Below, in pieces: positions 7,356 through 62,002 of a stretch of DNA of 64,000 nt. Positions within the stretch are counted from its first letter, which is position 1, and the number at the start of each line of letters is the position of its first letter. The notes beneath the pieces are model-generated. The model saw only the letters and a program-made list of their open reading frames with translations. It made no database searches and had not been told where the DNA came from. This stretch comes from a virus. Location: the IMG/VR virus record IMGVR_UViG_3300009109_000001, positions 1 through 64,000 of that record; one strand, given 5' to 3'. Made by a program: the position numbers and the translations under genes.

Positions 7356-9035
7356 ATGACTTGGAAAAAATATTTTACACAGCCAAATAACGTAGTTCCA
7401 TTACGTAACGGCACACCAGACGTAGGTTTTAAAAACTACAGTTCAGTATTACCTGAAGTATATTCAGGACATCCTAACCGTATCGAACGTTATATTCAAT
7501 ACGATGGTATGGATCAAGATAGTGAGGTTAATTCAGCACTAGATATCCTTGCTGAATTTTGTACACAATCTAATACTGAATCTGGTATCGCTTTTCACGT
7601 GCATTATCATGAAGATGCTACAGATACAGAAGTAGACATCTTACAAACACAATTACGACATTGGTATAACTTGCAAGGGTTTGAACGTAAGGTATTTAAA
7701 TTATTTCGTAATGTGTTAAAATATGGTGACCAAGTTTTTATTAGAGATCCTGAAACACAAAAATGGCATTTTGTAGATAGTGCTAAAGTAGAAAAAATTG
7801 TTGTTGATGAAAGTGCTGGGCGAGAAATTGAACAGTATACAATTCGTGATTTAGCAATTAATTTTGAAACACTTGCAGTTACTGAAAAGGATACAACAGG
7901 TAGTACAATTCCTAACTTAACCAGTAGGCAAGGACATCAAACACAACAAACATTAGCAGACTCAGCAAAATATAGTTATGGTAAGAAGTCTGTTGCTGTA
8001 GATGCACAGCACATTGTTCATATTAGTATGACAGAAGAGATGGATGGAAGTTGGCCATTTGGTAATAGTATTTTAGAAAATATTTTTAAAACTTATAAAC
8101 AAAAAGAATTGCTTGAAGATGCTATTATTATATACAGAGTACAAAGAGCACCAGAGCGTAGAGTATTTTATATTGATGTAGGTAACATGCCTTCCCATAT
8201 GGCTATGGGTTTTGTAGAGCGTGTTAAAAACGAAATACACCAACGTAGAATTCCTACAACAACTGGCGGCGGTACTAAAATGATGGATTCAACATATAAT
8301 CCATTATCCATTATGGAAGATTACTTTTTCCCACAAACAGGTGAAGGACGTGGTAGTAAAGTTGAAACATTACCAGGTGGTGAGAACTTAGGTCAAATTG
8401 ATGACTTAAAATTCTTTACTAACAAGATGTATAGAGCACTACGCATACCAAGTAGTTATTTGCCAACAGGTCCAGATGAAGGTGTTGCAGCTTTTTCAGA
8501 TGGTAGAGTTGGTACAGCATTAATACAAGAATATAGATTTAACGAATATTGTAAGAGATTACAACAAATAGTTGCCGCAGTAATTGATGATGAGTTTAAG
8601 TTGTTTATAAAAACACGTGGTATTAATATTGATAATAGTATTTTTGAAGTTAAATTTAATGAACCACAAAACTTTGCATCATATAGACAAGCAGAGTTGG
8701 ATAATACAAAGATTTCAGCATTTACTCAATTAGAAGCGTTGCCATATATGAGTAAACGTTTTATGATGCAACGTTATCTTGGTTTAACTGAAGAAGAGTT
8801 AGCAGAAAATACAAAAATGTGGCAAGAAGAAACTGGTAATTCAGTAAATGCTTCTGTTGAAGGATCGGATATGAGGTCCATTGGTATTACTCCAGGTGGA
8901 TTGGAAAGTGATATGGCTATGGCTGAGATACCTGAACCTCCTATGGAAGAAGGCATGGAAGGTATGGAAGGTGAAGAACCTGGTATGGCACCTGGCGCGC
9001 CTGAAGTAGCACCAACGGAACCAGCACCGGTTTAA
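7356..9035 (+). CDS. 20: Portal vertex protein gp20
   Basis: A 559-residue homologue of the T4 portal gp20 (524 aa). The N-terminal segment (VLPEVYSGHPNRIERY, then DMDSEVNSALDILAEF-like residues) and the central stretch with YRVQRAPERRVFYIDVGNMP, followed by NEIHQRR, are hallmarks of T4-like portals. The C-terminus is acidic and Met/Pro/Gly-rich, an extension not needed for the fold. The protein forms the dodecameric ring through which DNA is packaged and on which the prohead nucleates. It heads a collinear head module (20, small ORF, 67, 21, 22, 23), as in T4. Its stop codon precedes a late-promoter-like motif for the next gene. Confidence 0.95.
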   Translation: MTWKKYFTQPNNVVPLRNGTPDVGFKNYSSVLPEVYSGHPNRIERYIQYDGMDQDSEVNSALDILAEFCTQSNTESGIAFHVHYHEDATDTEVDILQTQLRHWYNLQGFERKVFKLFRNVLKYGDQVFIRDPETQKWHFVDSAKVEKIVVDESAGREIEQYTIRDLAINFETLAVTEKDTTGSTIPNLTSRQGHQTQQTLADSAKYSYGKKSVAVDAQHIVHISMTEEMDGSWPFGNSILENIFKTYKQKELLEDAIIIYRVQRAPERRVFYIDVGNMPSHMAMGFVERVKNEIHQRRIPTTTGGGTKMMDSTYNPLSIMEDYFFPQTGEGRGSKVETLPGGENLGQIDDLKFFTNKMYRALRIPSSYLPTGPDEGVAAFSDGRVGTALIQEYRFNEYCKRLQQIVAAVIDDEFKLFIKTRGINIDNSIFEVKFNEPQNFASYRQAELDNTKISAFTQLEALPYMSKRFMMQRYLGLTEEELAENTKMWQEETGNSVNASVEGSDMRSIGITPGGLESDMAMAEIPEPPMEEGMEGMEGEEPGMAPGAPEVAPTEPAPV

Positions 9036-9046
9036 TAAATACTAAT
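9034..9046 (+). promoter_or_regulatory. Late promoter placed for a leaderless mRNA (AATAAATA + 5 nt + ATG)
   Basis: AATAAATA at 9034-9041 overlaps the gp20 stop; CTAAT then leads directly to ATG 9047. With the T4 geometry (motif -13 to -6) transcription starts on the A of ATG. Confidence 0.6.
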
Positions 9047-9292
9047 ATGATTTTACTAGAAATTTTTACAGATGTTAAAATGCAAGAACATGACAAGGAT
9101 GATAAACATTCACGTTATGATCCTTCTGCTGACCAAACTGTAATGAAAAAAGACGATACACGAAAAACTCGTTTAACGTTGAAGCAAATTAATAAAATTC
9201 GTCGAATGCAAGAATTACGTGCATCCGAGCAATTACAAGATGAAGAGCAATATGCAATACAATATGCTCCTGCACCAGCGGCACCTATGTAA
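9047..9292 (+). CDS. Small prohead-module protein (gp68-position, conserved in marine T4-like phages)
   Basis: An 81-residue, highly charged protein between portal and prohead core genes. The C-terminal part (KTRLTLKQINKIRRM, then QELRASEQL) is a basic amphipathic helix and the tail is Ala/Pro-rich (APAPAAPM). Many marine T4-like phages carry a small protein of this type after gp20. In T4 the equivalent slot holds core proteins gp67 and gp68, so a prohead core or core-assembly role is likely. No ribosome binding site is present; the ATG sits exactly five bases after TAAATA. Confidence 0.65.
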   Translation: MILLEIFTDVKMQEHDKDDKHSRYDPSADQTVMKKDDTRKTRLTLKQINKIRRMQELRASEQLQDEEQYAIQYAPAPAAPM

Positions 9293-9421
9293 AATTACCC
9301 TTTTTCTCCCCTTTTCACTCATTTTACCCTTATAATCAAGTATATTAGCAAATTATTATTAAATATAATTATATATTTGTAATTTGTACCTTTATGAAAT
9401 ATTAAAAGGAGTGATTTCGCT

Positions 9422-13158: not shown

Positions 13159-13223
13159 CGTAGTAATACAGTAGTAATATACTACGTTTATGGGGAACAC
13201 CATCCCCGTAGTCCATAGAATGG
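13159..13223 (+). promoter_or_regulatory. Structured 5' leader with three consecutive hairpins
   Basis: CGTAGTA/TACTACG (13159-13165/13180-13186), GGGGA/TCCCC and GTCCAT/ATGGAC follow one another before a free TTAAGGAG ribosome site. A 5'-terminal hairpin may protect an abundant late mRNA from decay. Confidence 0.55.
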
Positions 13224-13245
13224 ACCAACCTTAAGGAGAAACAAA

Positions 13246-25239: not shown

Positions 25240-25247
25240 AATAAATA
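25240..25247 (+). promoter_or_regulatory. Late-promoter-like AATAAATA
   Basis: Initiation near 25253 would leave about 11 bases of leader that are essentially just the AGGAG ribosome site before ATG 25264. Confidence 0.6.
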
Positions 25248-25263
25248 TTTACAGGAGAACAAA

Positions 25264-26013
25264 ATGGTAAACAAATATGTTACTGATTATGATGGTGAAT
25301 ATGTAGTATCCGGTATTGTAGTTAAGAATGGCCGGAAACATCAAGATAGATTCTGGATTCCACACAGTGTTCCTAACTCTGACCATAAAAAAGTAGCATA
25401 TGTAGTTGGCAATGGTAGATCTCGAATAGACCATTCTGGCGTTGCAATGAAGTTAAGTTATCTTACAACGGCAGGCGGCGGCCATTTTGGAGCATATAAA
25501 GGACAGTGTTATGGTTGTAATAGAATCTATCAGGATTGGAATCCGGATTTTCTTGTAGTAACACATCCTGAATTAGCAGATGAAATAGTTGAAAGTGGTT
25601 ATGCTGAAGATAATATTGTATTTGGTAGAGCAAAAAGCGTATTAGAACATCCTGAATATGTATCGCTCATTCCGCATGATCCACGAATGAACGCCGGTGC
25701 AACAGCAACATATCTTGCTTGCTTTCACGGCCATAAGAAAATTTATTTGTATGGATTTGATAATCAACCTGAAGATCCAAACACAAATAACAATGTATAT
25801 GCTGGTACAGATTTATATGGTCCAGCAGATGTGAATCCAGGCGATGTAGTTTGGATTAATAATATGAAAAGAATATTTGACACATATAATGATGTTGATT
25901 TTATAAGAGTAACTGCTGATGGTATGGAAGATGAAATGCCTGAAGAATGGAAATGGTGTAAGAATTTCCGCCAATTAAAAGTATGGGATTTTGTAATAGA
26001 AGCAGATATTTAA
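25264..26013 (+). CDS. Putative glycosyltransferase (GT42/MptE-like Rossmann protein)
   Basis: A 249-residue protein. It has an early VVGNGRSR motif (about residues 47-55) and a later NAGATATYLACFHGHKKIYL segment followed by YGFDNQ. This pair resembles the 'GNGPSL' and 'TG..A...A...G...I.L.G.D' motifs of sialyltransferase-type GT42 and the DUF115/MptE-like family. Between them is a CYGCNR motif. If right, it would add a sugar or nucleotide-linked group to a virion or cell-surface glycan. It lies at the end of the fibre cluster, which suits fibre or receptor glycosylation. Its stop overlaps the convergent Nudix gene by 4 bases. Confidence 0.45.
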   Translation: MVNKYVTDYDGEYVVSGIVVKNGRKHQDRFWIPHSVPNSDHKKVAYVVGNGRSRIDHSGVAMKLSYLTTAGGGHFGAYKGQCYGCNRIYQDWNPDFLVVTHPELADEIVESGYAEDNIVFGRAKSVLEHPEYVSLIPHDPRMNAGATATYLACFHGHKKIYLYGFDNQPEDPNTNNNVYAGTDLYGPADVNPGDVVWINNMKRIFDTYNDVDFIRVTADGMEDEMPEEWKWCKNFRQLKVWDFVIEADI

Positions 26014-26432
26014 ATTGTTTCTACTATAGTTTTAATCTTATCTTTAATTGAATCTAGTTTAAGGGTTGAAAAAACACCAGGATGCAATGGGCCTGGCCAC
26101 CCTGCCATAGTAACCCAAGCAAACCCACAATGTTCTCCATTCAAAACGGGTATAAATTCCTTATCAATTATTAAAATAAATGTGTGATAAAAGAAGTGAC
26201 CATCTTCTGATGTAAATAATTCAATAGGAATTGTTTTCTCTATATCGGGTAAGTGTCCTACTTCCTCGAAAATTTCCCTTTTTAAACCATTAATAGTTGT
26301 TTCATCTTTTTCTATTTTGCCGCCTGCAAAACCCCATCTATTTTTATATTTTTTATCATTCCTTAATAGAAATAGAAAACGTTTTGTATCGCGGCAGTAG
26401 AAAATACCACCCGCTCCAGTGACCTGCTTCAT
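26010..26432 (-). CDS. Nudix hydrolase
   Basis: A 140-residue protein with a complete Nudix box: G38-x5-E44-x7-R52-E53-I-F-E56-E57-V-G59. It therefore hydrolyses a nucleoside diphosphate linked to another moiety. T4 encodes NudE, which acts on ADP-ribose and Ap3A, but substrate cannot be read from sequence here. The start has no Shine-Dalgarno sequence; TAATTA lies exactly five bases before ATG, a one-base variant of the leaderless late-promoter arrangement found elsewhere. It is convergent with the glycosyltransferase-like gene and lies just downstream of gp15 on the same strand. Confidence 0.85.
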   Translation of the reverse strand: MKQVTGAGGIFYCRDTKRFLFLLRNDKKYKNRWGFAGGKIEKDETTINGLKREIFEEVGHLPDIEKTIPIELFTSEDGHFFYHTFILIIDKEFIPVLNGEHCGFAWVTMAGWPGPLHPGVFSTLKLDSIKDKIKTIVETI

Positions 26433-26454
26433 AGTAATAATTATATAAAATTTA

Positions 26455-30341: not shown

Positions 30342-30352
30342 TAAATACATAT
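30340..30352 (+). promoter_or_regulatory. Late promoter placed for a leaderless mRNA before gp13
   Basis: AATAAATA (30340-30347), then CATAT, then ATG 30353. It overlaps the end of the upstream gene. Confidence 0.6.
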
Positions 30353-31117
30353 ATGGCAAGTAAAGAATTAACTAAACTAAAAACTGCGTTGTTTGATAAT
30401 GTTAGATTACGACTTGGTGCTCAGATTATTGACGTTGAATTAGATAATGAGCATTTAGAAGTAGGCTTAGAAAATGCTATTAATAAGTATCGTCAATTAA
30501 GTTCAAACTCTGTAGAAGAATCTTACGGCTTCTTAAAACTTGAGAAAAATAGACAAGATTACTTTTTAGATGCTAATGTTTTAGAAGTAAGACAAATTTT
30601 CCGTAGAACAATTGGTAGCACAACAGGTGGTGGTGCCTCCAATTTTGAACCATTTGAAGCAGGATATATGAATATGTATATGCTTAAAGCAGGTATGGTT
30701 GGTGGTTTAGCAACATATGAAATGTTTAGTGGTTATCAAGAAACAGCCGCAAGAATGTTTGGTGGTTTTATTAATTATAGATTTGATCCAGTTACTAAAA
30801 AATTAACCATTGTGCGTAAAATTGATAGTGATGAAGGTGAAGATGTTTTGATGTGGATGTATAATCAAAAACCAGATGAAAATCTTTTACAACATCATAT
30901 GACTAAGAAATGGATGGAAGATTATACACTTGCTATGAATAAAGAAATACTTGGCGAATCTCGTGGTAAATTTGCTACAATTGCTGGTCCACAAGGTGGT
31001 ACTACTATGAATGGTGCTGAATTAAAAGCAGAAGGACAGCAAATGATGGCAGATTTAATATTACAACTTAATAATTACGAAGATGGTGGTGTGCCAATGT
31101 CGTTTATTATCGGTTAA
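30353..31117 (+). CDS. 13: Neck protein gp13
   Basis: A 254-residue protein, shorter than T4 gp13 (309 aa). It has the N-terminal LGAQIIDVELDNEHLEVGLE segment and 'A..KYRQLSSNSVEESY' followed by a RRTIGS loop and a C-terminal MTKKWMEDYTLAMNKEILGE, then GRG-type residues, all typical of gp13 in marine T4-like phages. It completes the portal vertex and forms the neck with gp14. Its ATG lies five bases after TAAATA with no ribosome site, one of the leaderless candidates. Confidence 0.82.
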   Translation: MASKELTKLKTALFDNVRLRLGAQIIDVELDNEHLEVGLENAINKYRQLSSNSVEESYGFLKLEKNRQDYFLDANVLEVRQIFRRTIGSTTGGGASNFEPFEAGYMNMYMLKAGMVGGLATYEMFSGYQETAARMFGGFINYRFDPVTKKLTIVRKIDSDEGEDVLMWMYNQKPDENLLQHHMTKKWMEDYTLAMNKEILGESRGKFATIAGPQGGTTMNGAELKAEGQQMMADLILQLNNYEDGGVPMSFIIG

Positions 31118-31129: not shown

Positions 31130-31142
31130 ATTAAATATTACT
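31130..31142 (+). promoter_or_regulatory. Late promoter placed for a leaderless mRNA
   Basis: ATTAAATA (31130-31137), then TTACT, then ATG 31143. It falls in a true intergenic gap. Confidence 0.55.
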
Positions 31143-31994
31143 ATGACTCAATCTCCATTGAAGTTCTATGTTATTGCGTATGCCAGTGGACATAAGGGCA
31201 ATAAATTAGCACATAATTTAATTACAAAATTTCCAGAGCAATTTGAAGTAAAATACTATAATGAAAAAGTACATAAATTAGATGGTTGGGGACATGAGTT
31301 TTTAGAACATTATCTTGCAGACATATATTGGTATCATGAGTTTTTACCTGTTGAAAAAAACACGTATTTTAGTACAGTATTATATCACAAATATGTTGAT
31401 GAAATTATTGCTGACTTGCATCGTAGGTTACAAGATGATGACAGATATCCACGTAATGATAAATGGAAAATAGTTTTAACTCATGGTAGTTCTATTATTC
31501 AATTACATGCTATACGTAATCAAATATTAGATGCTCTTGGAGGAGTACTGCTTCTTAATAGGAATCAATTAGGACATTGTGTCCATATTACTCAAGTAAT
31601 GTGTGATGATCTACAGCAAAACGCTCAGTATTTTCGTCGGCACCATGAAAGTACTAATGGATATGGTGATTATTTTGATGATTTACGTAGTTATGCTATA
31701 GGACCTGGTGGGTATATGTATTTTGGTGGGCAAGTAGATGTATCTTTTGAAACGGATACAATTATTAAAACAGAAGATATAGATGATGAATCTTTTTATA
31801 CTTTAGATAATTTATTTAAATCACGCCCAGTTTTACCTGAGTATATTGTAAATCGTTGGACTAAAAATATTACTATAGAAGAAGATACTTGGATTTATAC
31901 TAATATAGCATATAAATTACAGGCATTAGGGTATCAAGTGCCTCCAGATAAAATTTATAAAAATAAGGCAGATTTGCTTGCAATTTGTGGTTAG
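31143..31994 (+). CDS. Hypothetical protein, possibly P-loop/sulfotransferase-like (283 aa)
   Basis: The N-terminus reads FYVIAYASGHKGNKLAHNLI, a beta strand followed by a Gly/Lys-containing loop and a helix, as in the phosphate-binding start of P-loop or sulfotransferase folds. Later comes KWKIVLTHGSS (about residues 108-118), which could be a second core strand. It shares this general layout with the protein at 40363. No certain family can be named. It sits between gp13 and dNMP kinase and has a leaderless-type promoter. Confidence 0.5.
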   Translation: MTQSPLKFYVIAYASGHKGNKLAHNLITKFPEQFEVKYYNEKVHKLDGWGHEFLEHYLADIYWYHEFLPVEKNTYFSTVLYHKYVDEIIADLHRRLQDDDRYPRNDKWKIVLTHGSSIIQLHAIRNQILDALGGVLLLNRNQLGHCVHITQVMCDDLQQNAQYFRRHHESTNGYGDYFDDLRSYAIGPGGYMYFGGQVDVSFETDTIIKTEDIDDESFYTLDNLFKSRPVLPEYIVNRWTKNITIEEDTWIYTNIAYKLQALGYQVPPDKIYKNKADLLAICG

Positions 31995-32642: not shown

Positions 32643-33960
32643 CGTCATAAACTACCGGAAAAAGTTCTGGATAATTAGTGCCGCGACGTCGGTCTAGTTC
32701 GGAAAGATAACGGTGTAGTTGTTTTTGTAATTCCTTATCGGGAGTAGATGCTTTAATACTTTTAGCAATGCCTTCCCAGTATTCTTTAGTGTTTATTATT
32801 GTTTGTTCACCAAATGTTTCTATTCTATTAATAGCTTCAGTATAACCCCAATCAAGAATTTGTGGTCCAAATATAGAAGGGTGTATACAAGGTCGTCCAC
32901 CTGCTTGCATCAATGAAATGTTTACTACTCTATATATTTTCTCTCTTTTTCTTTTTTCGGTTCTATTTTGTTTAAAAAATTGCTCTTGCCATGTATTAAC
33001 TTTATCGATGAGATCTGCCATTGTAAAAGTTGTTAATGGCATCCAACACATGTTAATGCTTGGATTCATATTAGTATTATCTATATAATAATTAAAATTA
33101 GTCTCCCACCATTCAAGATTTAACCCAGATCTAACATATTCTGCTTCCTTACCCCAACAATCTAAACTAGCGATAAGTTTAAATTGTCTTAAATTACCGT
33201 TATCACATAAGGCCTGCATTTTGTCCATCATGCGAGATACTTTTTTTGGTTCTAATGAAAGATTGCTATTAATATTTAATATTAATTCAGGACATTTTTT
33301 AGTAGATAAGAAATCTAATAACTCGATGGTTTCGGGTTGAGTAAAGGGCTCGCCGCCTAATATATATAAGTTTCTTAAATGTTGTATATTTTCATCAAGC
33401 CAAACATATAGTTTTTCTTTTACATTTAACACGTTACTAGTATAGTTGGATTTCCAGTTTCTTGGATCCAAATCTGTTGCAAATCCATACAGATATTCAT
33501 CTATATGTCCAAATTTCTTATTTTCAGCTTCCCATGTAGTGCTAAAATATTGCCCACAATATGTACAAGACATTTGGCAATTAGTACTAAAAAATAATTC
33601 TAATTCAGTAGGGGTAATATTGTCGACTTGAGTAGGATTATCTTTTAATTCCTTTGCAGATTCTGGACCATGTGGCCACTTTGAATGCAACATTCTATCG
33701 CTCATTCCGCCAGCATCTTCTATAACTTTACAATGTTCACAGCCGTTGCCTGGCCATTCATCCCTGAGCATTTTTTGTCTTGCGAGAACTTTTTCTTCAG
33801 TGTTATGAAAATCAAAGTTATCTGGTATTCTATCTTGGTCAACTCTGTGGCAACTTGCAGTAGTGTTAGTGGTTAGAAATATAGTGCTATGTGACCATTT
33901 AAGACGACATTGTAAATTCGACTGTAATGGATGCATAAAATAATTTGGTCCGTTTGTCAT
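32623..33960 (-). CDS. Radical SAM protein, N-terminal twitch/SPASM-type (445 aa)
   Basis: Radical SAM cysteines are C128, C132 and C135 (CX3CX2C, CQMSCTYC), followed by GGEP at 202-205. Ahead of the core, C37 and the pair C74/C77 (CEHC) fit an N-terminal auxiliary cluster, as in the 'twitch domain' radical SAM family. This binds extra Fe-S clusters and usually modifies peptides or proteins. The same architecture and the motif TYCG..FS..WEA appear in the gene at 45164, so the two are paralogues. It stands alone on the minus strand between dNMP kinase and an HNH gene, behind TAAATA-N5-ATG. Substrate unknown. Confidence 0.8.
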   Translation of the reverse strand: MTNGPNYFMHPLQSNLQCRLKWSHSTIFLTTNTTASCHRVDQDRIPDNFDFHNTEEKVLARQKMLRDEWPGNGCEHCKVIEDAGGMSDRMLHSKWPHGPESAKELKDNPTQVDNITPTELELFFSTNCQMSCTYCGQYFSTTWEAENKKFGHIDEYLYGFATDLDPRNWKSNYTSNVLNVKEKLYVWLDENIQHLRNLYILGGEPFTQPETIELLDFLSTKKCPELILNINSNLSLEPKKVSRMMDKMQALCDNGNLRQFKLIASLDCWGKEAEYVRSGLNLEWWETNFNYYIDNTNMNPSINMCWMPLTTFTMADLIDKVNTWQEQFFKQNRTEKRKREKIYRVVNISLMQAGGRPCIHPSIFGPQILDWGYTEAINRIETFGEQTIINTKEYWEGIAKSIKASTPDKELQKQLHRYLSELDRRRGTNYPELFPVVYDAIHSDS

Positions 33961-33973
33961 AATAATATTTACC
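33961..33973 (-). promoter_or_regulatory. Late promoter placed for a leaderless mRNA
   Basis: On the minus strand GGTAAATA, then TTATT, then ATG (33960). An AAAGG sequence also lies upstream, so a leadered transcript would have a weak ribosome site. Confidence 0.55.
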
Positions 33974-33975
33974 TT

Positions 33976-34332
33976 TTAAAAATCTGGTATTAAATCTCCT
34001 TGCTTCCATCCTTTTCCTGAGATATATAACATTCTATGGCAATTAGCACACACTGTTCTTAAATTTTTCCAATTGTTGTTTTTTCTATTTCCATCTTGAT
34101 GATATACATCTAGTTGTATATGATGTTGTGGTTTAAAACCACATCTTTCGCATTGAGTTTTTTTAGTATATCCGCTTGCTTTCCATTCTGTGTGTGATGT
34201 TGTTTCTAATTTTTTATCTTGTCGTATGCATTTATCACACTGTGTTCTGTAATGTGGTATTCCTTTTTTATAATAATTTACAGCAACTGGACGCATACCA
34301 CAACGACAGAGTGGTCTTTTAGCATGTTTCAT
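33976..34332 (-). CDS. HNH endonuclease
   Basis: A 118-residue protein. It has a zinc-binding HNH core: C61-x2-C64, the D75-x2-H78 (LDVYHQDGN) catalytic segment, N-rich NRKNNNW and C95-x2-C98-H99. An N-terminal second zinc motif (C9, C11, C32, C35) is also present. Free-standing HNH proteins of this type are typical homing endonucleases of T4-like phages, often inserted between structural genes. Here it sits directly upstream of the sheath gene on the opposite strand. Its ATG lies exactly five bases after TAAATA. Confidence 0.85.
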   Translation of the reverse strand: MKHAKRPLCRCGMRPVAVNYYKKGIPHYRTQCDKCIRQDKKLETTSHTEWKASGYTKKTQCERCGFKPQHHIQLDVYHQDGNRKNNNWKNLRTVCANCHRMLYISGKGWKQGDLIPDF

Positions 34333-34345
34333 AATATTATTTATT
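34333..34345 (-). promoter_or_regulatory. Late promoter placed for a leaderless mRNA
   Basis: On the minus strand AATAAATA, then ATATT, then ATG (34332). Late expression of a homing-type gene would be unusual. Confidence 0.55.
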
Positions 34346-37827: not shown

Positions 37828-37835
37828 GATAAATA
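37828..37835 (+). promoter_or_regulatory. Late-promoter-like GATAAATA before the tube gene
   Basis: Initiation near 37841 gives a short leader with TAGGAG before ATG 37858. Confidence 0.6.
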
Positions 37836-37857
37836 TTGATAACAATAGGAGAAGAAA

Positions 37858-38466
37858 ATGTCCGTAGCGTCATTAACAAAATTTACAGTACCAATTAGTG
37901 GTGCTGGTTCAATGGGCACATTGATGCCGAAGTTAAAATATCGATATCGTGCAATACTTGAAAATTTTGGTGTTACTACTCCAAGATCAGAAATTACAAA
38001 AAATGTAATGGATATTACACGACCATCCGTTGCACATGATATGATAACACTTGATGTGTATAACTCAAGGGTATATCTAGCAGGGAAACATACATGGGAT
38101 CCAACTACAATTCAGTTACGTGATGACGTAAATGGTGAAATTGCTCGTAGAGTAGGCGAACAAATGCAGAAGCAGTTCGACTTTTTTGAACAAACATCTG
38201 CTGTATCAGGATCTGATTATAAATTTGTAACAAAATTTGAAGTATTAGATGGCGGCAACGGTGCCGCAGCTGCAACAGTATTAGAAACTTGGGAATTATA
38301 TGGTTGTTATATTGAATCAGTTAACTACCAAGATATGAACTATGCATCAAGTGAGCCAGCAACAATTTCATTAAGTGTGAGATTTGATAATGCTTTGAAT
38401 ACACCAACTGAAACTGGTATTGGAGCCGCAGTAGGTAGATCAGTAAGTAGCGCCGCAACAGGATAA
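37858..38466 (+). CDS. 19: Tail tube protein gp19
   Basis: A 202-residue protein. It contains the tube-family segment KLKYRYRAILENFG (about 25-38), ITRPSVAHDMITLDVYNSRV, GKHTWDPTTIQLRDD and a C-terminal WELYGCYIESVNYQDMNYAS. These are the conserved strands of T4-like tube proteins (T4 gp19, 163 aa). It forms the hexameric rings through which DNA passes. Adjacent to the sheath gene with its own promoter and ribosome site, consistent with the high copy number needed. Confidence 0.93.
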   Translation: MSVASLTKFTVPISGAGSMGTLMPKLKYRYRAILENFGVTTPRSEITKNVMDITRPSVAHDMITLDVYNSRVYLAGKHTWDPTTIQLRDDVNGEIARRVGEQMQKQFDFFEQTSAVSGSDYKFVTKFEVLDGGNGAAAATVLETWELYGCYIESVNYQDMNYASSEPATISLSVRFDNALNTPTETGIGAAVGRSVSSAATG

Positions 38467-38474
38467 TTAGTCCT

Positions 38475-39509
38475 GTGGCATCATTTATAACGAATTTCTT
38501 GCATGGAATCGGTAGTGGAGAACATATCAAAGACTACCGCCATGCAAGTAATCTTTTCACTCATGATAATTTTAGGTTATCACCTAAAACCGCATTTTTA
38601 TATCATTGTCTAATTAAATTAAATAGGCAAGCAGTTGGATATTCTGGTATGTCTGCAATGTTACAACATGAACCTGAGTTAAGTTTCATGGTTAAAGCAG
38701 TAGATTTGCCTAGAATGTCGGTTGATATTGAAGAATTAAATCAATATAATCGAAAAACTTATAATATGACAAAAGTTAATTATAGTCCTATAACTATAAC
38801 TTTTCATGATGATAGTGCAAATACAATTCGTGATTTCTTAGCAAATTATTATAATTACTATTTTAGTGACGGATCAGTTAGTCATGACGCGCAACATGAT
38901 TTGCGTGATGGGACTGGACTTCGCCAGTCATATAGTCAAAATGGTTTTCTTGGTACTGGCGGAGCTTGGGGTTTAGATTCAACCTTCACACATGAGGCGA
39001 GAGGACAAAATTTACTTGATTATATTCAAATATATTCTTTAAGTAAAGGCAGAGCAAGTGGTTATAAATTGATAAATCCAATACTTTCAGGTATAAATCA
39101 TGGCACTCATGATGCTTCTGCTGGTGGCACTCCGATGGAACATAGTGTTACTGTAAATTATGAAGCAATTATGTATGATGAAAAACAAGTATCTGAAATG
39201 AGTATTTTAGGTGGTTCTTTTTATGATAGAGAGAAAAGCGTATTGTCTGGAGCGGGTGGCGGAACTAATAGTGTATTAGGTCCAGGTGGCATGTTTGATA
39301 AAGGTATGGATATTTTTGGTAATTTACAACAAGGTGGCATTGGTGGTATAGCAAAAGCTGCTATAAATGCATATTCTTTAAAAGAGCAAATGCGCCGTTT
39401 TGATGCAAGAGATTCTTTAAAACATGAAGTTCGTGATATGTCACGAGGCGTGGAAGACTATGTAGCACGTGAAGTTGGAAAGAAATTTGCAACAGCAACT
39501 CGTGAGTAA
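38475..39509 (+). CDS. Tube-like baseplate protein (gp48/gp54-type)
   Basis: A 344-residue protein starting at GTG. The middle (FMVKAVDLPRMSVDIEELNQ, YNRK, then VNYSPITITFHDDSANTIRD, FLANYYNYYF) shows the tube-protein fold of the T4 baseplate tube initiators gp54 (320 aa) and gp48 (364 aa). A Gly-rich stretch and a charged helical C-terminus follow. It would lie between hub and first tube ring, or cap the tube. Immediate linkage to gp19 supports this. Which of gp48 or gp54 it represents cannot be told. Confidence 0.6.
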   Translation: MASFITNFLHGIGSGEHIKDYRHASNLFTHDNFRLSPKTAFLYHCLIKLNRQAVGYSGMSAMLQHEPELSFMVKAVDLPRMSVDIEELNQYNRKTYNMTKVNYSPITITFHDDSANTIRDFLANYYNYYFSDGSVSHDAQHDLRDGTGLRQSYSQNGFLGTGGAWGLDSTFTHEARGQNLLDYIQIYSLSKGRASGYKLINPILSGINHGTHDASAGGTPMEHSVTVNYEAIMYDEKQVSEMSILGGSFYDREKSVLSGAGGGTNSVLGPGGMFDKGMDIFGNLQQGGIGGIAKAAINAYSLKEQMRRFDARDSLKHEVRDMSRGVEDYVAREVGKKFATATRE

Positions 39510-39517
39510 ATATTACG
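39505..39517 (+). promoter_or_regulatory. Late promoter placed for a leaderless mRNA
   Basis: AGTAAATA (39505-39512) overlaps the stop of the upstream gene; TTACG then leads to ATG 39518. Confidence 0.55.
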
Positions 39518-39910
39518 ATGGCCATTAATAAAACTAATTTACCTATATTTGATGAGACTTTTGCTGAGTTTACGCAAGATGAAAAACAAAAGCAATTTTT
39601 TAGTAATTATTATACACAAGTAGATTCAGTAGATCCAGCACATTTTGATATTGTGCGTGGTTTTCTTGTAGGTAAAAATTTTGATGCATCAACTGTTGAT
39701 AATTTAGTTATATCATTGTTAGAAGTAGCAAAAGAGCAAGATTTAAGTATACCTGATTTAATAGAGCAATTAGATGGTTTGGAAGATACATTGCAACTTA
39801 ATACCTTATTAAGTTTATTATTAAATACTACAAGAAATCGAACCAGTATATTGGGTTTTGAACAAACTACGGCAGTTTCTGATAATATTTCTCGAACTAT
39901 ACTGGCTTAA
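39518..39910 (+). CDS. Hypothetical protein (130 aa), probable tail/baseplate component
   Basis: A 130-residue, mainly helical, acidic protein; I do not recognise its family. It has no Cys, no membrane segment and no enzyme motif. It lies between the tube-like baseplate gene and gp4, with 3 bases to the next start, so a structural or assembly role is the simplest reading. The start has no ribosome site and lies five bases after TAAATA. Confidence 0.6.
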   Translation: MAINKTNLPIFDETFAEFTQDEKQKQFFSNYYTQVDSVDPAHFDIVRGFLVGKNFDASTVDNLVISLLEVAKEQDLSIPDLIEQLDGLEDTLQLNTLLSLLLNTTRNRTSILGFEQTTAVSDNISRTILA

Positions 39911-40351: not shown

Positions 40352-40362
40352 TAAGTATTAGT
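40350..40362 (+). promoter_or_regulatory. Variant late promoter with leaderless spacing before a GTG start
   Basis: TAAGTA (40352-40357), then TTAGT, then GTG 40363: one mismatch to TAAATA with the same five-base spacing. It would drive the radical SAM operon. Confidence 0.4.
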
Positions 40363-41109
40363 GTGTTCGTCTTACCTGAATTAAATTTTATATTTTTATG
40401 TTATCCACACGGTGCAGGTGGAGAATTCTTGTCCTATATTATAAGCAAATCAGACGAGTGTAATACTTTAGATAGGCGTAAAATAGGTGATAGGTATAAA
40501 GTTGATGACGTATTTAATCAAAACTTATTGCGTATGGATTTTAAGCCAGAAAGATTATATGATCATAAAGATATAAACACATTAGATAAAGACAAATATG
40601 TTGTAGTTCCTACGCATTATAGAGAAGATGACATATGGAAGTATTTTAAAAGATATAAATTTATTAATATAACATATCCTGCTTCTAAAGAAGGCCATAA
40701 GCAAATATTACGCAATATTAAAAGTAAAGTTTGGTATCAGCCACAGCCAACACAGTTAGAATTTTTTGGTATGTTGTTACAGTTAACTACGAATAATGAC
40801 AAATCGTGGTATATCAATACACATTATAATATGAATACTATAGATATCATACTTGCCTCACGTAAACAAGAATTAACAGATAAAAATAGAAAAAAATTAG
40901 AAAAAGAATGGGATAAAGCAGAGTATAATTATCATTCTGTTGTTGATAGAAATTTAAATATAAATTATGATGATTTAGATGCTCGTCAACAATACGTGCC
41001 ATCACAAAGTAGAGTATTGAGGCAAATAAGTCAACATTGTGACATAACTATGCAAGATGAGTTACATCAAGAGTTTCGAGTTAAAATAGAAAATGACAAA
41101 CAAATATGA
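40363..41109 (+). CDS. P-loop/sulfotransferase-like protein (248 aa)
   Basis: The N-terminus NFIFLCYPHGAGGEFLSYII (about residues 8-27) is a beta strand, a Gly-rich anion-binding loop and a helix, as in the 5'-phosphosulfate-binding loop of sulfotransferases or a P-loop kinase. A second strand (KYVVVPTHYRED) follows at about 77-88. Similar 'CYP.GAGG.(F/W)L' proteins occur in marine phages beside sugar- or peptide-modifying genes. GTG is chosen as start because it has the five-base spacing from a TAAGTA motif. It is the first gene of the overlapping radical SAM operon. Confidence 0.5.
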   Translation: MFVLPELNFIFLCYPHGAGGEFLSYIISKSDECNTLDRRKIGDRYKVDDVFNQNLLRMDFKPERLYDHKDINTLDKDKYVVVPTHYREDDIWKYFKRYKFINITYPASKEGHKQILRNIKSKVWYQPQPTQLEFFGMLLQLTTNNDKSWYINTHYNMNTIDIILASRKQELTDKNRKKLEKEWDKAEYNYHSVVDRNLNINYDDLDARQQYVPSQSRVLRQISQHCDITMQDELHQEFRVKIENDKQI

Positions 41110-43764: not shown

Positions 43765-44684
43765 TGTATACTGAAAAAACAACATTATTACATGTTGAAC
43801 CTACAACAAGATGTAATGCATCTTGCCCTGGTTGTCCACGTAATAATAATGGATTTGGTCTTGCAGACGGGTTTGTGTTGCAAGATTTATCACCTGACAC
43901 TATTGTTGCAGAGGCAAGTAAATTGCCTAATTTAAGAGCAATTCATTTGTGCGGTAATTTAGGCGATCCAATAGCATACAAATATTTGAATGAATTAATT
44001 GACAAGGCAGTGGCCCAAACTAGATTTTTTCATCAATTTCTTAAAGTAGATAGATGTTGGGATATTAATATAGCAACCAATGGCAGTTTGCGTTCAGTAA
44101 AATGGTGGCAAGAGTTAGGTAAAAAGTGTAGTGTAGATCTTACTAACTCTCATACTGTAGTGTTTGGTATTGATGGGTTAGCAGACACGAGTCCAATGTA
44201 TAGACAAGGAACTAATTTTAATAAAGTAATTGATAATGCTAAAGCGTTTATAGATGAAGGTGGTGTTGCAGAATGGCAATATCTAGTTTTTAAACACAAT
44301 CAACATCACATTGAGGAAGCAAAGCAACTAGCAAAAGATATAGGATTTAAGAAATTTTTTGTATTACAGCCGCATATCACATCGGCATATCATTGGAAAA
44401 CAGGAGAAAGATATTATTTAGAACCAGCAGATTTTATAGAATCTAAGGATAAAGCAAATAATACATATGTTAAACATGAAGATTGTATGCATATAAATGT
44501 AAATGGTAATGGAGATTATAGTTTATTTTTAACAGTGGGTGGTAAATTAACACCTTGTTGTCATTTTGATATTTTAGGAACCTCAAAAGAAGAATATGAT
44601 ATAGAAACATTAGATATTAAAAATGAATTTGATAATAATGAATACCGATTTACATGTCGTAGGAAGTGCGGATCAGTTAAATAG
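43764..44684 (+). CDS. Radical SAM protein B of a tandem pair (306 aa)
   Basis: Motif C17-x3-C21-x2-C24, CGNLGDP loop and C-terminal cysteines (EDCMHI, LTPCCHF, TCRRKCG) as in the preceding gene, but 31 residues shorter, mostly by lacking an insert around residue 250 of the paralogue. Its start overlaps the upstream stop by one base. The 3' end carries GTTAAATA, which forms the late promoter for the terminase small subunit four bases beyond the stop. The two proteins may act as a heterodimer or on successive positions of one substrate; this is speculation. Confidence 0.82.
   Translation: MYTEKTTLLHVEPTTRCNASCPGCPRNNNGFGLADGFVLQDLSPDTIVAEASKLPNLRAIHLCGNLGDPIAYKYLNELIDKAVAQTRFFHQFLKVDRCWDINIATNGSLRSVKWWQELGKKCSVDLTNSHTVVFGIDGLADTSPMYRQGTNFNKVIDNAKAFIDEGGVAEWQYLVFKHNQHHIEEAKQLAKDIGFKKFFVLQPHITSAYHWKTGERYYLEPADFIESKDKANNTYVKHEDCMHINVNGNGDYSLFLTVGGKLTPCCHFDILGTSKEEYDIETLDIKNEFDNNEYRFTCRRKCGSVK
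43785..43858 (+). repeat. 74-bp direct repeat, copy 2
   Basis: Identical to 42778-42851, about 1,007 bases apart. Further shared stretches occur downstream in both genes. Confidence 0.9.
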
Positions 44685-44688
44685 TATT
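44676..44688 (+). promoter_or_regulatory. Late promoter placed for a leaderless mRNA before gp16
   Basis: GTTAAATA (44676-44683) lies inside the last codons of the upstream gene; GTATT then leads to ATG 44689. Confidence 0.6.
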
Positions 44689-45177
44689 ATGACAAAGAAA
44701 TTAGAAGAATTGTTTGATTTAGAAACACCTGTTGAAGAAATACAACCAGATAGTAAGATAGCAAAAACTGATGCTAAAAAACTTAAAAAAGTTCTGTCTG
44801 ATGTAGATAAAATAGACAGTGCTTTGCCACTTGTGCGAGATTTGGAAGCAAATGACTTAGAAATGGATAGTATTGCTACTAAATCTGTAGATACGTTTAA
44901 TGACTTGATGGACTTGGGTATGAATGTAGAGGCACGATACGCAGGTAAAATATTTGAAGTTGCTGGTACTATGATGAAAAATGCTATAGATGCCAGAACA
45001 GCAAAAATAGATAAAAAGTTGCGTATGGTCGAATTACAGATTAAAAAACAACGGGTTGATCAACAAGGTAAAGACTTGGATCCATATAGTGATACTATGG
45101 ATGGAGAAGCAACAATAGTAGCAGATCGCAATGAGTTAGTAAAACAAATCTTAAATCAAAATAATGACAAGAAATAA
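44689..45177 (+). CDS. 16: Terminase small subunit gp16
   Basis: A 162-residue protein, nearly the size of T4 gp16 (164 aa). The central helical region (SVDTFNDLMDLGMNVEARYA, then AGTMMKNAIDARTAKIDKKL) fits the coiled-coil oligomerisation core of T4-like small terminases. An upstream in-frame ATG at 44623 is rejected because it lies inside the radical SAM gene. ATG 44689 follows its stop and has the exact TAAATA-N5 spacing. The protein recognises DNA and regulates gp17. It is separated from gp17 by 4.5 kb, whereas in T4 the genes are adjacent. Confidence 0.75.
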   Translation: MTKKLEELFDLETPVEEIQPDSKIAKTDAKKLKKVLSDVDKIDSALPLVRDLEANDLEMDSIATKSVDTFNDLMDLGMNVEARYAGKIFEVAGTMMKNAIDARTAKIDKKLRMVELQIKKQRVDQQGKDLDPYSDTMDGEATIVADRNELVKQILNQNNDKK

Positions 45178-49716: not shown

Positions 49717-49729
49717 GTTAAATAGTAGT
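49717..49729 (+). promoter_or_regulatory. Late promoter placed for a leaderless mRNA before gp17
   Basis: GTTAAATA (49717-49724), then GTAGT, then ATG 49730. No Shine-Dalgarno sequence is near. Confidence 0.6.
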
Positions 49730-51313
49730 ATGGCCAATAAATCTCTCGATGGCAATTTAGTCAAGCGAGCACACGCAAAAGAAAAATATACTGATGATCA
49801 ACTATTGGAGTTGGCAAAATGTGCAGATTTGGCGACTGGTCCTGGTCATTTTATAAACAATTATTTTTGGATACAACATCCGCGACGCGGCCGTATTCCG
49901 TATAAAGCGTTTGACTATCAAACAAGATTATTAGCAAGTTATCATGATAATAGATTTAGTATAAATTTAATGCCACGGCAAACAGGTAAAACTACAACTG
50001 CCGCAGGTTATATATTGTGGTATGCTATGTTTATACCTGATAGTGCAATACTAATTGCCGCACACAAATATGCAGGTTCCCAAGAGATTATGCAACGTAT
50101 ACGATATTCGTATGAAGACGTGCCAGATCATATACGCCCAGGTGTGTATAGTTATAACAAAGGTAGCATAGACTTTGATAATGGCAGTAGAATTGTCAGT
50201 ACAACAACTACTGAAAACACTGGACGTGGTATGGCACTCAGTATGCTATATTTAGACGAGTTTGCGTTTGTAAAACCCAGCATTGCGAGAGAGTTTTGGA
50301 CAAGTATTTCACCTACATTAGCAACAGGCGGTAAAGCAATAATAACATCAACGCCAAACAGTGATGAAGATCAGTTTGCTATGATTTGGCGCCAAGCAAA
50401 TAAAACTATAGATGATGAAGGTAACGAAACTACTGTAGGACGCAACGGATTTTTTGCTTTTAGGTCATACTGGAATGAACATCCAGAGCGTGATGCTCAG
50501 TGGAAAGCGGAAGAAATGGGACGCATTGGTGCTGAACGTTTCGCTAGAGAGCATGATTGTGAGTTTCTTATTAATGATGAAACATTAATAGACTCTAGGG
50601 CATTGTCAATGTTGCGTCCAACTGATGTATTAGAAAAACATGGACAAGTTAGGTGGTTTGATAAACCTAGAAAAGGACATAATTATTTGGTGTCACTTGA
50701 TCCAAGTTTAGGAACAGGCGGAGATAATGCCGCCATTCAAGTGTTTGAAATACCAACTATGAAACAAGTTGCTGAATGGATGCATAACAAAACACCAGTT
50801 CAAGGACAAGTAAAAATATTACGGGATATTACTAATTATATTGCAGATGAGATAGATCACAGAGATGAATCAAACCCGGCCGTTTGGTATAGTATAGAAA
50901 ATAATACATTAGGTGAAGCGGCACTTGTAGTTATTGATGATATGGGTGAACAGCAATTTGGTGGTGTATTTTTAACAGAAACTCGTAAGCATGGTAATAC
51001 AAAACGTTATAGGAAGGGGTTTAATACTACCCATAAAAACAAATTATTAGCATGTAGTAGGTTAAAAAATCTTGTTGAAACAGACAAGATAAAGTTAAGA
51101 AGTAAGAATTTAATATCAGAACTAAAAACATATATTGCCCGTGGGCAAAGTTATGCCGCTAAAGACGGTGAAACGGATGATTTGGTTTCTGCTACATTAT
51201 TAATAATACGGATGAGTTATGAAGTAAGGCAATGGGATATTAATTTATTTGACAGACTTAAAGATGGTTTAGATCAAGAGCATGATATGCCGATGCCTTT
51301 TATAATAGTTTAA
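49730..51313 (+). CDS. 17: Terminase large subunit gp17
   Basis: A 527-residue protein (T4 gp17, 610 aa). The ATPase half has Walker A MPRQTGKTTT (81-90), Walker B MLYLDEF (172-178) and the coupling motif ITSTPN (205-210). The RNase H-like nuclease half has its first catalytic Asp in VSLDPSLGTGGDNA (D324), a second acidic site in SIENNTLGEAAL and a third in DDLVSATLL. It drives DNA into the prohead through the portal. It is shorter than T4 gp17 mainly at the N-terminus. The start has the leaderless late-promoter spacing. Confidence 0.96.
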   Translation: MANKSLDGNLVKRAHAKEKYTDDQLLELAKCADLATGPGHFINNYFWIQHPRRGRIPYKAFDYQTRLLASYHDNRFSINLMPRQTGKTTTAAGYILWYAMFIPDSAILIAAHKYAGSQEIMQRIRYSYEDVPDHIRPGVYSYNKGSIDFDNGSRIVSTTTTENTGRGMALSMLYLDEFAFVKPSIAREFWTSISPTLATGGKAIITSTPNSDEDQFAMIWRQANKTIDDEGNETTVGRNGFFAFRSYWNEHPERDAQWKAEEMGRIGAERFAREHDCEFLINDETLIDSRALSMLRPTDVLEKHGQVRWFDKPRKGHNYLVSLDPSLGTGGDNAAIQVFEIPTMKQVAEWMHNKTPVQGQVKILRDITNYIADEIDHRDESNPAVWYSIENNTLGEAALVVIDDMGEQQFGGVFLTETRKHGNTKRYRKGFNTTHKNKLLACSRLKNLVETDKIKLRSKNLISELKTYIARGQSYAAKDGETDDLVSATLLIIRMSYEVRQWDINLFDRLKDGLDQEHDMPMPFIIV

Positions 51314-60546: not shown

Positions 60547-60548
60547 GT

Positions 60549-61424
60549 ATGGGATTTCCGATAATTAATACAAAAAACGTGACTGTAAAACAGTGTAAGC
60601 ATGGTGATTTTGCTTATTTGAGAAGTGATACAGTAATTGGTAAAAGTTTAGATACTTATGGTGAATATGCTGAGACAGAACTTGCATTAGCATCTCAGTT
60701 GTTAAGACCAGGTGGTAAAGTAATAGATGTGGGTGCTAATATTGGATTACATTCTGTATTTTATAGTAAAATGGTTGGAGAAGAAGGTGAAATTTATGCA
60801 TTTGAACCGAGCAATTTAAATTATTATTTTCTTGTAACTAATTTAACTCTTAATGATGCTTTTAATGTCCAGCATCTTAAAGCGGCTATCGGAACGGAAA
60901 AACCATTATACTTGCCTATTAATACAGTGAATGATGAAATGAATCATGGAGCATTAAAAACGTCAGCAAAAGATGGTGGTGATAATTTCGAGCAATGTGC
61001 TGTATTTCAGTTAGATGATATTGGATTAGAACAATGTAATTTAGTAAAAGTGGATGTAGAAGGTAATGAAGTAGATGTGTTAAAAACTGGTGAGCAGTTA
61101 TTTACAAATTTACGTCCTTTTATTCTGTGTGAAGCACAAGAGAATACAAAAGAATTATTTCAACTAATTAAAGATATTGGATATGAATCATATTGGGTTC
61201 CTTCAAATAATTTTAATCCTGATAACTTTTTTGAAAGTAAAGAATGTATATTTGATGATCCAACAAGCCAAATAATTAATATTTTTGCTTATCCGAAAGA
61301 AATAGATATTGATATTACTAATTTAAAAAAGGTTAAAGGCGTCAATGATAAGTGGAAAACTCTTAAGAAAACTACGAAGAAGAAAACTAAAAAGAAAGCC
61401 AAGAAAAAAACTAAGAAGAAATAG
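60549..61424 (+). CDS. FkbM-family methyltransferase with Lys-rich tail (291 aa)
   Basis: VIDVGANIGLHS (58-69), then IYAFEPSNLNY, 'LDDIGLEQCNLVKVDVEGNE' and 'LRPFILCEAQEN' are the conserved FkbM blocks, typical of O-methylation of sugars or lipids. The last 22 residues are almost only Lys and Thr (TLKKTTKKKTKKKAKKK type), resembling a histone H1 or AlgP tail and suggesting nucleic acid or polyanion binding. The tail is not part of the FkbM fold. The 3' end overlaps the convergent gene by 14 bases. Confidence 0.8.
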   Translation: MGFPIINTKNVTVKQCKHGDFAYLRSDTVIGKSLDTYGEYAETELALASQLLRPGGKVIDVGANIGLHSVFYSKMVGEEGEIYAFEPSNLNYYFLVTNLTLNDAFNVQHLKAAIGTEKPLYLPINTVNDEMNHGALKTSAKDGGDNFEQCAVFQLDDIGLEQCNLVKVDVEGNEVDVLKTGEQLFTNLRPFILCEAQENTKELFQLIKDIGYESYWVPSNNFNPDNFFESKECIFDDPTSQIINIFAYPKEIDIDITNLKKVKGVNDKWKTLKKTTKKKTKKKAKKKTKKK

Positions 61425-61989
61425 CAATTAGTTCGTTTTCAATACCTATGTTAGGTAATGGTTCTTTATCGGTAAAATCATGATAATTTGCTATTGTAAA
61501 TCCATGATCCTCGAGATATTCGTATAAGTTTAATCCTAAACATTCATTAACAAAATCTCCACCAGCAGTAAATATTATTCCGCCTTGTAGTACAACATTA
61601 CGCATTGCGTAGTCTATAGAGAACATTCTTAACTCGGGAGTCCATCTAAAATCTCCTGCATCAACATTGCAGAATCCAAGATTCATATTTTCTAAATCAT
61701 ATATGTCCTTTTCAATAATATTTGGATGATTGAGAGGATTCCATAAATCTATCCCAATACAGCGATCGCCATATTGCCTATACAATATGTCAAAACTAAT
61801 GCCAAAATTAGTGCCCATTTGCATATATTTCCCGTAGGCAGGTTTTAGCATTCCGTGTAATACGTGTTCAAACATAAAACAAGATTTAGACATGTATCCG
61901 TGATTGTGCCCTTCTACCCCAACATCCCTAAACCAAAAATCAAAGCATTCTTGGGATTTCTGCGTGATTTGGGATTCAGTGAGATTCAT
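61411..61989 (-). CDS. Methyltransferase-like hypothetical protein (192 aa)
   Basis: A 192-residue protein. YGKYMQMGTNFGISFDILYR, followed by GDRCIGIDLWN, looks like motif I and the strand-2 acidic residue of a class I SAM-dependent fold, with NLGFCNVDAGDFRW and 'LQGGIIFTAGGDF' as later strands. The Gly-rich loop (MGTNFG) is degenerate relative to active methyltransferases, so activity is uncertain. Its ATG lies exactly five bases after TAAATA on the minus strand, the only gene in this segment on that strand. Confidence 0.5.
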   Translation of the reverse strand: MNLTESQITQKSQECFDFWFRDVGVEGHNHGYMSKSCFMFEHVLHGMLKPAYGKYMQMGTNFGISFDILYRQYGDRCIGIDLWNPLNHPNIIEKDIYDLENMNLGFCNVDAGDFRWTPELRMFSIDYAMRNVVLQGGIIFTAGGDFVNECLGLNLYEYLEDHGFTIANYHDFTDKEPLPNIGIENELIAISS

Positions 61990-62002
61990 ATGAATATTTA
62001 TG
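61990..62002 (-). promoter_or_regulatory. Late promoter placed for a leaderless mRNA
   Basis: On the minus strand CATAAATA, then TTCAT, then ATG (61989). No ribosome site is present. Confidence 0.6.

Follow-up and report, generated by a model that had tools for sequence, protein, structure and literature searches.

The window studied here, 64,000 nucleotides long, comprises bases 1-64000 of a 158,042-base phage record in IMG/VR (IMGVR_UViG_3300009109_000001; 'own record' or 'own genome' below). Nine of its genes have the hexamer TAAATA, exactly five bases and then ATG. Very probably, this TAAATA-N5-ATG unit is a late promoter of the T4 type, dependent on the sigma factor gp55, whose transcription start (+1) would fall on the A of the ATG and give a leaderless mRNA. 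As a prediction, leaderless late transcripts are well supported by the sequence; the reading comprises three inferred steps, namely that RNA starts at the A of the ATG, that gp55 drives the promoter and that ribosomes start on a bare AUG.

In the proposed mechanism, TAAATA would be the −11 to −6 core of the promoter and would be read by host RNA polymerase with a gp55-like phage sigma. Two classes of genes are predicted. In class one, the start site, i.e. the sixth base past the motif, would be the A of the start codon; the mRNA would be leaderless and its 5′-terminal AUG would be translated without Shine-Dalgarno (SD) pairing. In class two, in the same genome, the same motif located 14-60 bases upstream would produce an ordinary leader, often with an SD sequence. 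We use k for the number of bases between TAAATA and the start codon; at k = 5 (TAAATA-N5-ATG) the first base of the motif sits 11 bases before the start codon.

Judged from gene content, the own record derives from a T4-superfamily phage. Its large terminase (TerL) is 52% identical to that of the PA5oct/Paride group (Pseudomonas), 49.5% to that of Phosso and 47% to that of Atu_ph07. Record G001 (235 kb) has matches of at least 95% for 122 of the 160 own genes; as G001 is longer and largely near-identical, the own record looks like a fragment, and G001 was excluded as independent evidence. Median identity of matched proteins to the own record is 85% for G002, 66% for G003, 63% for G009, 42% for G005, 41% for PA5oct and 40% for G006.

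Spacing between TAAATA and start codons

All nine sites stand at the positions and on the strands reported in an earlier note on the window, and its claim that so exact a spacing exceeds chance held: shuffled windows contained 2.36 such sites on average and 8 at most (0 of 100 reached 9), while the whole own record has 27 (22 on the plus strand, 5 on the minus strand) versus 4 when the pattern is reversed. Enrichment of the five-base spacing, which the note proposed to check in the full genome, stands out over all spacings from 0 to 40. At k = 5, 25 of the 27 ATGs open reading frames (ORFs) of at least 50 amino acids (aa), whereas ATGs number 1-13 at each of the other spacings between 0 and 40, where no more than 7 open such ORFs (the runner-up is k = 23, with 7 of 13); the neighbouring spacings k = 4 and k = 6 open 2 and 4.

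Gene starts called blind to upstream motifs gave the same picture: TAAATA was at k = 5 in 20 of the 160 own genes and at any other spacing in 0-4 genes. When all hexamers at spacings 0-12 were ranked in the own genome, TAAATA at k = 5 came first (25 seen versus 0.87 expected). Among the 15 letter orders of TAAATA at 13 spacings, the entries that follow, with 14 and 9 ORFs, were the same sites in a shifted register. The −10 box of a host sigma-70 promoter was rejected as a candidate, since TATAAT-N5-ATG in the own genome has five ATGs, none opening an ORF of at least 50 aa, and no peak at k = 5.

The sites of the window are given below with their conservation. Orthologues were defined as reciprocal best hits of the own called k = 5 genes, a start up to 45 bases from the aligned one being accepted; the genes at 34332 and 61989 lie outside the called genes and hence outside this comparison.

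9036..9049, plus strand: TAAATA-N5-ATG, gene 9047-9292 (81 aa, PHROG 13986, function unknown); kept in G002, G003, G009 and G006, not in PA5oct
30342..30355, plus strand: TAAATA-N5-ATG, gene 30353-31117 (gp13-like head-tail connector, PHROG 211, 7e-32); kept in G002, G003, G009 and G006, not in G005 or PA5oct
31132..31145, plus strand: TAAATA-N5-ATG, gene 31143-31994 (283 aa, no family); kept in G002, the sole orthologue found
33958..33971, minus strand: TAAATA-N5-ATG, gene 32623-33960 (radical-SAM-like, 445 aa), on the strand opposite to that of the late genes around it; kept in 0 of 3 orthologues found
34330..34343, minus strand: TAAATA-N5-ATG, gene 33976-34332 (HNH endonuclease, 118 aa)
39507..39520, plus strand: TAAATA-N5-ATG, gene 39518-39910, the TAA of the motif being the stop codon of the upstream gene; kept in 0 of 2 orthologues (G002, G003)
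44678..44691, plus strand: TAAATA-N5-ATG, gene 44689-45177 (gp16-like terminase small subunit, weak match); k = 5 in G002, G003 and G009, TAAGTA at k = 5 in G006, k = 4 in G005
49719..49732, plus strand: TAAATA-N5-ATG, gene 49730-51313 (terminase large subunit gp17, 8e-116)
61987..62000, minus strand: TAAATA-N5-ATG, gene 61411-61989 (192 aa), opposite to both neighbours
40352..40365, plus strand: variant TAAGTA-N5-GTG, gene 40363-41109; no other one-mismatch form is as common at k = 5 as TAAGTA
26430..26443, minus strand: variant TAATTA-N5-ATG, gene 26010-26432
38464..38477, plus strand: variant TAATTA-N5-GTG, gene 38475-39509; new to this analysis and the weakest variant
25242..25266, plus strand: for contrast, TAAATA-N5 then A, leader AGGAGAACAAA (with AGGAG), ATG at 25264
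37830..37860, plus strand: for contrast, TAAATA-N5 then A, leader with GGAG, ATG at 37858

Both variants named in the earlier note (TAAGTA before the GTG at 40363, TAATTA at 26432) are present at the same spacing, and the two genes that it contrasted with the set, those at 25264 and 37858 with the motif further upstream, do carry ribosome-binding words in their leaders. Its placing of gp13, gp16 and gp17 in the set is supported for the first and the last; the gp16 match is weak (PHROG 445, 8e-4). It had also stated that most of these genes show no SD sequence. In the own record, a 4-base SD word precedes 15% of 20 called k = 5 genes, 42% of 106 genes without TAAATA nearby and 52% of 25 genes with TAAATA at k = 15-40, so the statement stands as a count, although the low value at k = 5 is partly forced, because TAAATA occupies part of the SD position. 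When hexamers and positions were ranked over called genes, TAAATA at k = 5 came first, above SD words, in the own genome, G002, G003, G009, G006 and HTVC008M; SD-like words rank first in T4, PA5oct and G005.

Over six genomes taken together, the forms with one mismatch at k = 5 are TAAGTA (10 genes), TAATTA (7) and GAAATA (6), against a background further upstream of 0.7-1.0 per position; two other forms occur once each.

The k = 5 set of the window includes connector and terminase genes. In the whole own record, 11 of 27 proteins scanned had PHROG matches, so for most of them family membership gives no function; the gene at 89014 has a partial baseplate-wedge match. The k = 5 set of HTVC008M contains genes for the tape measure, end protector, head closure, tail tube cap, baseplate wedge and tail completion proteins, along with oxygenase, CsgF and cyclase genes.

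At two k = 5 sites of the own record the ATG does not simply begin a long gene. The ATG at 154464 does not open a gene, its third base being the first base of tRNA-Thr; here RNA from a late promoter may begin almost at the 5′ end of the tRNA. Twelve tRNA genes lie close to the end of the own record. From the ATG at 107723 the frame runs for only four codons (MAVT), and a longer ORF with GGAGG before it comes next, perhaps a case of a mini-ORF leader; the sequence upstream of this site resembles that upstream of 108391.

Two further observations concern the window. The minus-strand radical-SAM-like and HNH genes (32623-34332) lie among genes of the plus strand and have a k = 5 motif each; the pair resembles a mobile insertion that has been connected to late expression. 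An Rfam 'freshwater-2' cis-regulatory RNA (RF02980, 63 bits) is found at 13170-13248 on the plus strand, directly 5′ of gene 13246-13875, with a TAAATA nearby at 13147 and a predicted RNA start at ∼13158.

Predicted transcription start, conservation and gene arrangement

The late motif of T4 spans −13 to −6 relative to the start site, as stated in an excerpt of PMC1524935; +1 is therefore the sixth base after TAAATA. The same excerpt describes the T at −13 as poorly kept in most phages studied, with Aeh1 using CTAAATA, and for this reason the full octamer is not taken as defining outside T4. The earlier note had assigned the whole T4 motif to −13 to −6: its frame stands, while the complete TATAAATA octamer is present in 3 of the 27 k = 5 sites. 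What the sites do carry is the sequence signature of a T4-type late promoter, a TAAATA core with +1 at the sixth base.

Leader-bearing promoters, defined as TAAATA 14-60 bases upstream of a gene start, leave position 6 after the motif unconstrained by ATG. In the own genome this position is A in 28 of 35 such promoters versus 46 of 151 TAAATA elsewhere (p 9e-8); in the window, in 11 of 13. The excess recurs in G002 (40/63 versus 107/311), G003 (26/42 versus 63/200) and PA5oct (37/53 versus 166/549) and is weaker in HTVC008M (12/19 versus 51/148) and T4 (13/24 versus 63/194); G005 and G006 pooled have 42/85 versus 47/161. At k = 5, position 6 coincides with the A of ATG. Furthermore, a pyrimidine occupies −1 in 17 of 19 k = 5 ATG genes of the own genome versus 70 of 125 others, which fits the expected pyrimidine-purine start step.

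A gp55-like late sigma (PHROG 12791/234) was found in 9 of 10 records searched: G001 (PHROG 12791, 4.8e-77), G002, G003, G005, G006, G009, HTVC008M, PA5oct and T4. gp55 is not known to have a domain that recognizes a −35 box, and this would account for so short a promoter.

The architecture is conserved in many orthologues. Orthologues of own k = 5 genes keep k = 5 in 15 of 18 cases in G002, 9 of 16 in G003, 4 of 6 in G009 and 3 of 4 in G006, the aligned start itself being used in 15, 7, 3 and 0 of the kept ones, respectively. It is not kept in orthologues from PA5oct (0/4), G005 (0/7), HTVC008M (0/1) and T4 (0/1). Spacer letters often differ between orthologues (for the terminase, gtagt in the own genome and gtggt, cagtt or ttcac elsewhere). 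Of the nine sites in the window, five are kept by one or more relatives. Among 80 related TerL loci from viral contigs, with starts up to 30 codons upstream accepted, 52 have TAAATA at k = 5, two have TAAGTA at k = 5, 25 have neither and one is cut off.

In distinct TerL upstream sequences with TAAATA at k = 5, a script detected a hairpin with a T-run ending 0-3 nt before TAAATA in 21 of 35; such terminators were present in 2 of 21 distinct upstreams without the motif and in 0 of 2 with TAAGTA. The 21 are related sequences, not 21 independent events. Folding of 60 bases gave −16.7 to −17.9 kcal/mol for three distinct of four folded TerL upstreams. As the terminator abuts the motif, RNA arriving from upstream should stop there. 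Terminators also occur at 2 of 11 k = 5 genes of HTVC008M, at 2 of 7 of G006 and, as seen by eye, before the motif at 143069 of the own record; the terminator argument rests on these and on the TerL loci, not on the own genome as a rule.

Divergent gene pairs provide a second arrangement of this kind. In HTVC008M, the start codons of gp025 (end protector, minus strand, start at 18916) and gp026 (head closure, plus strand, start at 18943) are separated by 26 nt, which are filled by two TAAATA-N5 units placed back to back with their motifs 4 nt apart. We searched viral contigs for such layouts and counted a stretch as open both ways when each side had an ORF of at least 40 aa, or of 15 aa or more if running off the contig. 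The 4-nt layout occurs in 82 stretches, and 66 of the 80 that were read have ORFs open both ways (23 of the 80 are homologues of the gp025/gp026 pair). The 3-nt layout occurs in 74 stretches (both-way ORFs in 67 of 75 matches) and the 8-nt layout in 102, of which 80 were read (73 of 80). A control with 7-base spacers, covering the 4-nt layout, yielded 14 stretches, with both-way ORFs in 2 of 14; 7 of the 14 are one repeated sequence. The 206 both-way pairs form 41 groups by protein similarity, the largest having 69 members. PHROG matches, obtained for 13 of 29 proteins from 15 pairs, include gp13-like connectors, tail tube, RNA ligase, homing endonuclease and nudix hydrolase. After masking of the divergent sites, 234 of the divergent loci still have 160 ORF-opening ATGs at k = 5 versus at most 32 at other spacings up to 35. 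In such pairs the start codons are 25-30 nt apart; indirectly, the divergent pairs and terminators of relatives would leave no space for longer leaders. The double k = 5 layout was not found in the own genome, G001, G002, G003, G005, G006 or G009 (gaps up to 60).

Points against, other readings and distribution

Several results weigh against reading k = 5 as the mark of a leaderless late promoter. None of the orthologues found has retained the sites at 33960 and 39518, and 25 of the 80 TerL loci have no k = 5 motif. In G005 and G006 the A is split over positions 5 (60%) and 6 (49%) of leader-bearing promoters, and in G005 a raw count of 11 ORF-opening sites among 15 corresponds to 3 of 276 called genes, with k = 4 and k = 7 equally common. 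G007, another relative, has no excess (3 versus 3 for the reversed control). T4 has the motif at k = 5 in 0 of 189 called genes (raw TAAATA-N5-ATG occurs 10 times versus 5 reversed, and 3 of the 10 open ORFs). PA5oct, from the named phage group nearest by terminase, contains the motif with no peak at k = 5 (1 of 200 genes). Terminators are rarer at k = 5 genes than at leader-bearing promoters in the own genome (1/20, weak and 21 nt away, versus 2/25), G002 (0/23 versus 3/38), G003 (0/17 versus 6/26), G009 (0/7 versus 2/10) and G005 (0/3 versus 5/57). A gp55-like match was not found in the own 158-kb record, which is probably a fragment (G001 has one). Finally, the lack of SD words is partly imposed by the motif itself.

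Some of these results would suit RNA that starts 1-5 nt from the A of the ATG and bears a tiny leader, with the spacing set by polymerase geometry and start-site preference. The split A signal of G005 and G006 points this way, as do an A excess at position 7 in the own leader-bearing promoters (57% versus 29%), the existence of genes at k = 4, 6 and 7 (12 in G002 versus 23 at k = 5) and some of the 25 TerL loci, which by eye have TAAATA at k = 4, 7 or 8. The sharpness of the own peak, with 25 ORFs opened at k = 5 versus the few at k = 4 and k = 6, and the position of the largest A excess (position 6, 80% versus 30%; position 5 has 34% versus 32%) speak against such leaders, and we consider them unlikely.

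Less probable still, and in our judgement a poor candidate, is a signal for translation rather than a promoter: an A/T-rich element in a longer mRNA, or coupling to an upstream stop codon TAA. Sequence after the ATG of k = 5 genes is A-rich, and at 23 of 100 k = 5 sites, taken together from five genomes, the end of the upstream gene is 11 bases or less from the ATG. At the same sites, the nearest called upstream gene is on the opposite strand in 19 of 100 and a same-strand gap exceeds 40 nt in 32 of 100, both values being upper bounds as the calls missed small genes, e.g. the HNH gene before 33960. Such a signal would not call for terminators just before the motif or for start codons as close as those of the divergent pairs; moreover, the motif with its position-6 A also stands well ahead of other genes, and a tRNA follows one of the k = 5 sites. 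The opposite-strand neighbours, the terminators and the divergent pairs led us to set aside both the translation-signal and the stop-codon-coupling readings. Chance or composition, suggested by a genome of 35% G+C with 217 TAAATA occurrences, is already refuted by the shuffled and reversed counts, with the shifted-register entries and the 611 TAAATA sites of PA5oct that make no peak pointing the same way, and retains practically no probability.

The leaderless late promoter is thus preferred, and its distribution is uneven. ORF-opening sites among all ATGs at k = 5 number 36/46 in G002, 21/25 in G003, 12/14 in HTVC008M, 10/13 in G006 and 8/9 in G009; Mosig is weaker (6/11). The pattern exceeds its reversed control in G008 (9/4), G010 (9/1), G011 (8/2), G012 (6/2) and G013 (6/2). 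In Syn9, 0 of 3 TAAATA-N5-ATG open ORFs. Other counts of pattern/reversed are P-SSM2 6/6, S-PM2 5/3, KVP40 2/2, Aeh1 1/2, 121Q 6/11, CBB 4/10, Vibrio 2.275.O 3/3, phiW-14 0/0, P-SSM4 4/6, phiM12 0/0, Phosso 3/2, PA5oct 15/12, Atu_ph07 15/9 and CP220 6/2. Judged by these sequences, the k = 5 architecture is neither universal in T4-like phages nor limited to one lineage.

We also looked for the ribosomal protein bS21. The own record has a match at 101762-101917 on the plus strand (a 120-aa frame), ∼52 kb from the terminase, and 10 of 23 records have one over the cut-off (own, G001, G002, G003, G005, HTVC008M, Mosig, PA5oct, Atu_ph07 and Phosso); none was found in the k = 5-enriched G006 and G009, both incomplete records. 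A link between bS21 and the architecture was rejected for want of a clean correlation: PA5oct, Atu_ph07 and Phosso have bS21 with little or no enrichment, and in G006 and G009, which are enriched, it was not found. Equation with the bS21 phages of PMC9723584 was rejected as well, since their bS21 lies within the terminase region according to an excerpt of that paper. A plasmid collection searched with 3 kb around the bS21 gene gave no match.

A permuted transfer-messenger RNA (tmRNA; RF04321) lies at 106620-107001 of the own record, where a betaproteobacterial tmRNA model matches as well, and one contig of a GTDB genome with a related TerL (55%) is binned as Betaproteobacteria TMED41. Together they hint at a betaproteobacterial host; neither is proof.

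Known systems and implications

Late promoters of T4 (TATAAATA; gp55, gp33, gp45) share with those proposed here the TAAATA core, +1 (here predicted) at the sixth base, an A at the start site and a gp55-like sigma (found here in a sister record and relatives); use for virion and packaging genes, among others, may be common to both. They differ in that the distance from TAAATA to ATG in T4 peaks at k = 26-29, with SD words in 90% of 20 such genes, whereas the own phage does without the leading TA in all but the three octamer sites and has the start codon at the expected +1 in 20 of 160 called genes. Leaderless mRNAs are known from phages: those of lambda cI, the Thermus phages phiYS40 and P23-45, and phiKZ likewise begin at the start codon without an SD sequence, but use host or phage polymerases and other motifs, whereas the own phage would use the gp55 late system. 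Deinococcus, mycobacteria and archaea have leaderless genes with a promoter box a few bases from the start codon; the fixed distance is alike, the promoters being cellular there and part of a phage late regulon here. Phage transcripts are described as often leaderless in an excerpt of the paper on phage AR9 (PMC5312081).

The Pelagibacter phages HTVC008M and Mosig (Kyanoviridae) are distant relatives (TerL identity 31% for HTVC008M). HTVC008M shares the k = 5 peak, which is weaker in Mosig, and has the divergent pair as well. For the related methylophage Melnitz, late promoters were searched as TATAAAT, and in the excerpt of that paper 'leaderless' appears in a reference title only (PMC9004378). 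Among open-access papers, partly judged by title, we found none that brings leaderless mRNA and gp55-type late promoters together; late promoters of the T4 type are known, as are leaderless mRNAs, and it is their combination that was not found in this literature.

The suggested benefit is compactness, as promoter and ribosome site need no space outside 11 bases. A wider proposal, which we put forward as speculative and on balance improbable, is that a large group of uncultured T4-superfamily phages shifts part of late translation to initiation at a 5′-terminal AUG: a gp55-type promoter of ∼11 bp would be the whole 5′ signal of a gene, two divergent genes would share 25-30 bp, and the phage may bias the host ribosome to such mRNAs late in infection. 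That bS21 might be the means of this bias toward leaderless mRNAs is a guess.

Should RNA mapping confirm the predicted starts, promoter and start codon would act as a single unit in a late regulon of these phages, and the leaderless genes under their T4-type sigma would make up a class spread over the whole genome. Gene prediction and promoter searches that count on a leader could then misjudge starts in many environmental phages, since k = 5 gives the strongest hexamer/position signal before starts in HTVC008M and five environmental records. At ∼32 bp, the symmetric divergent module would be a minimal two-way promoter. Such phages would offer a large natural set of leaderless genes beside leader-bearing genes served by the same kind of promoter, and how and when leaderless mRNAs are favoured would become testable in cultured HTVC008M and its Pelagibacter host.

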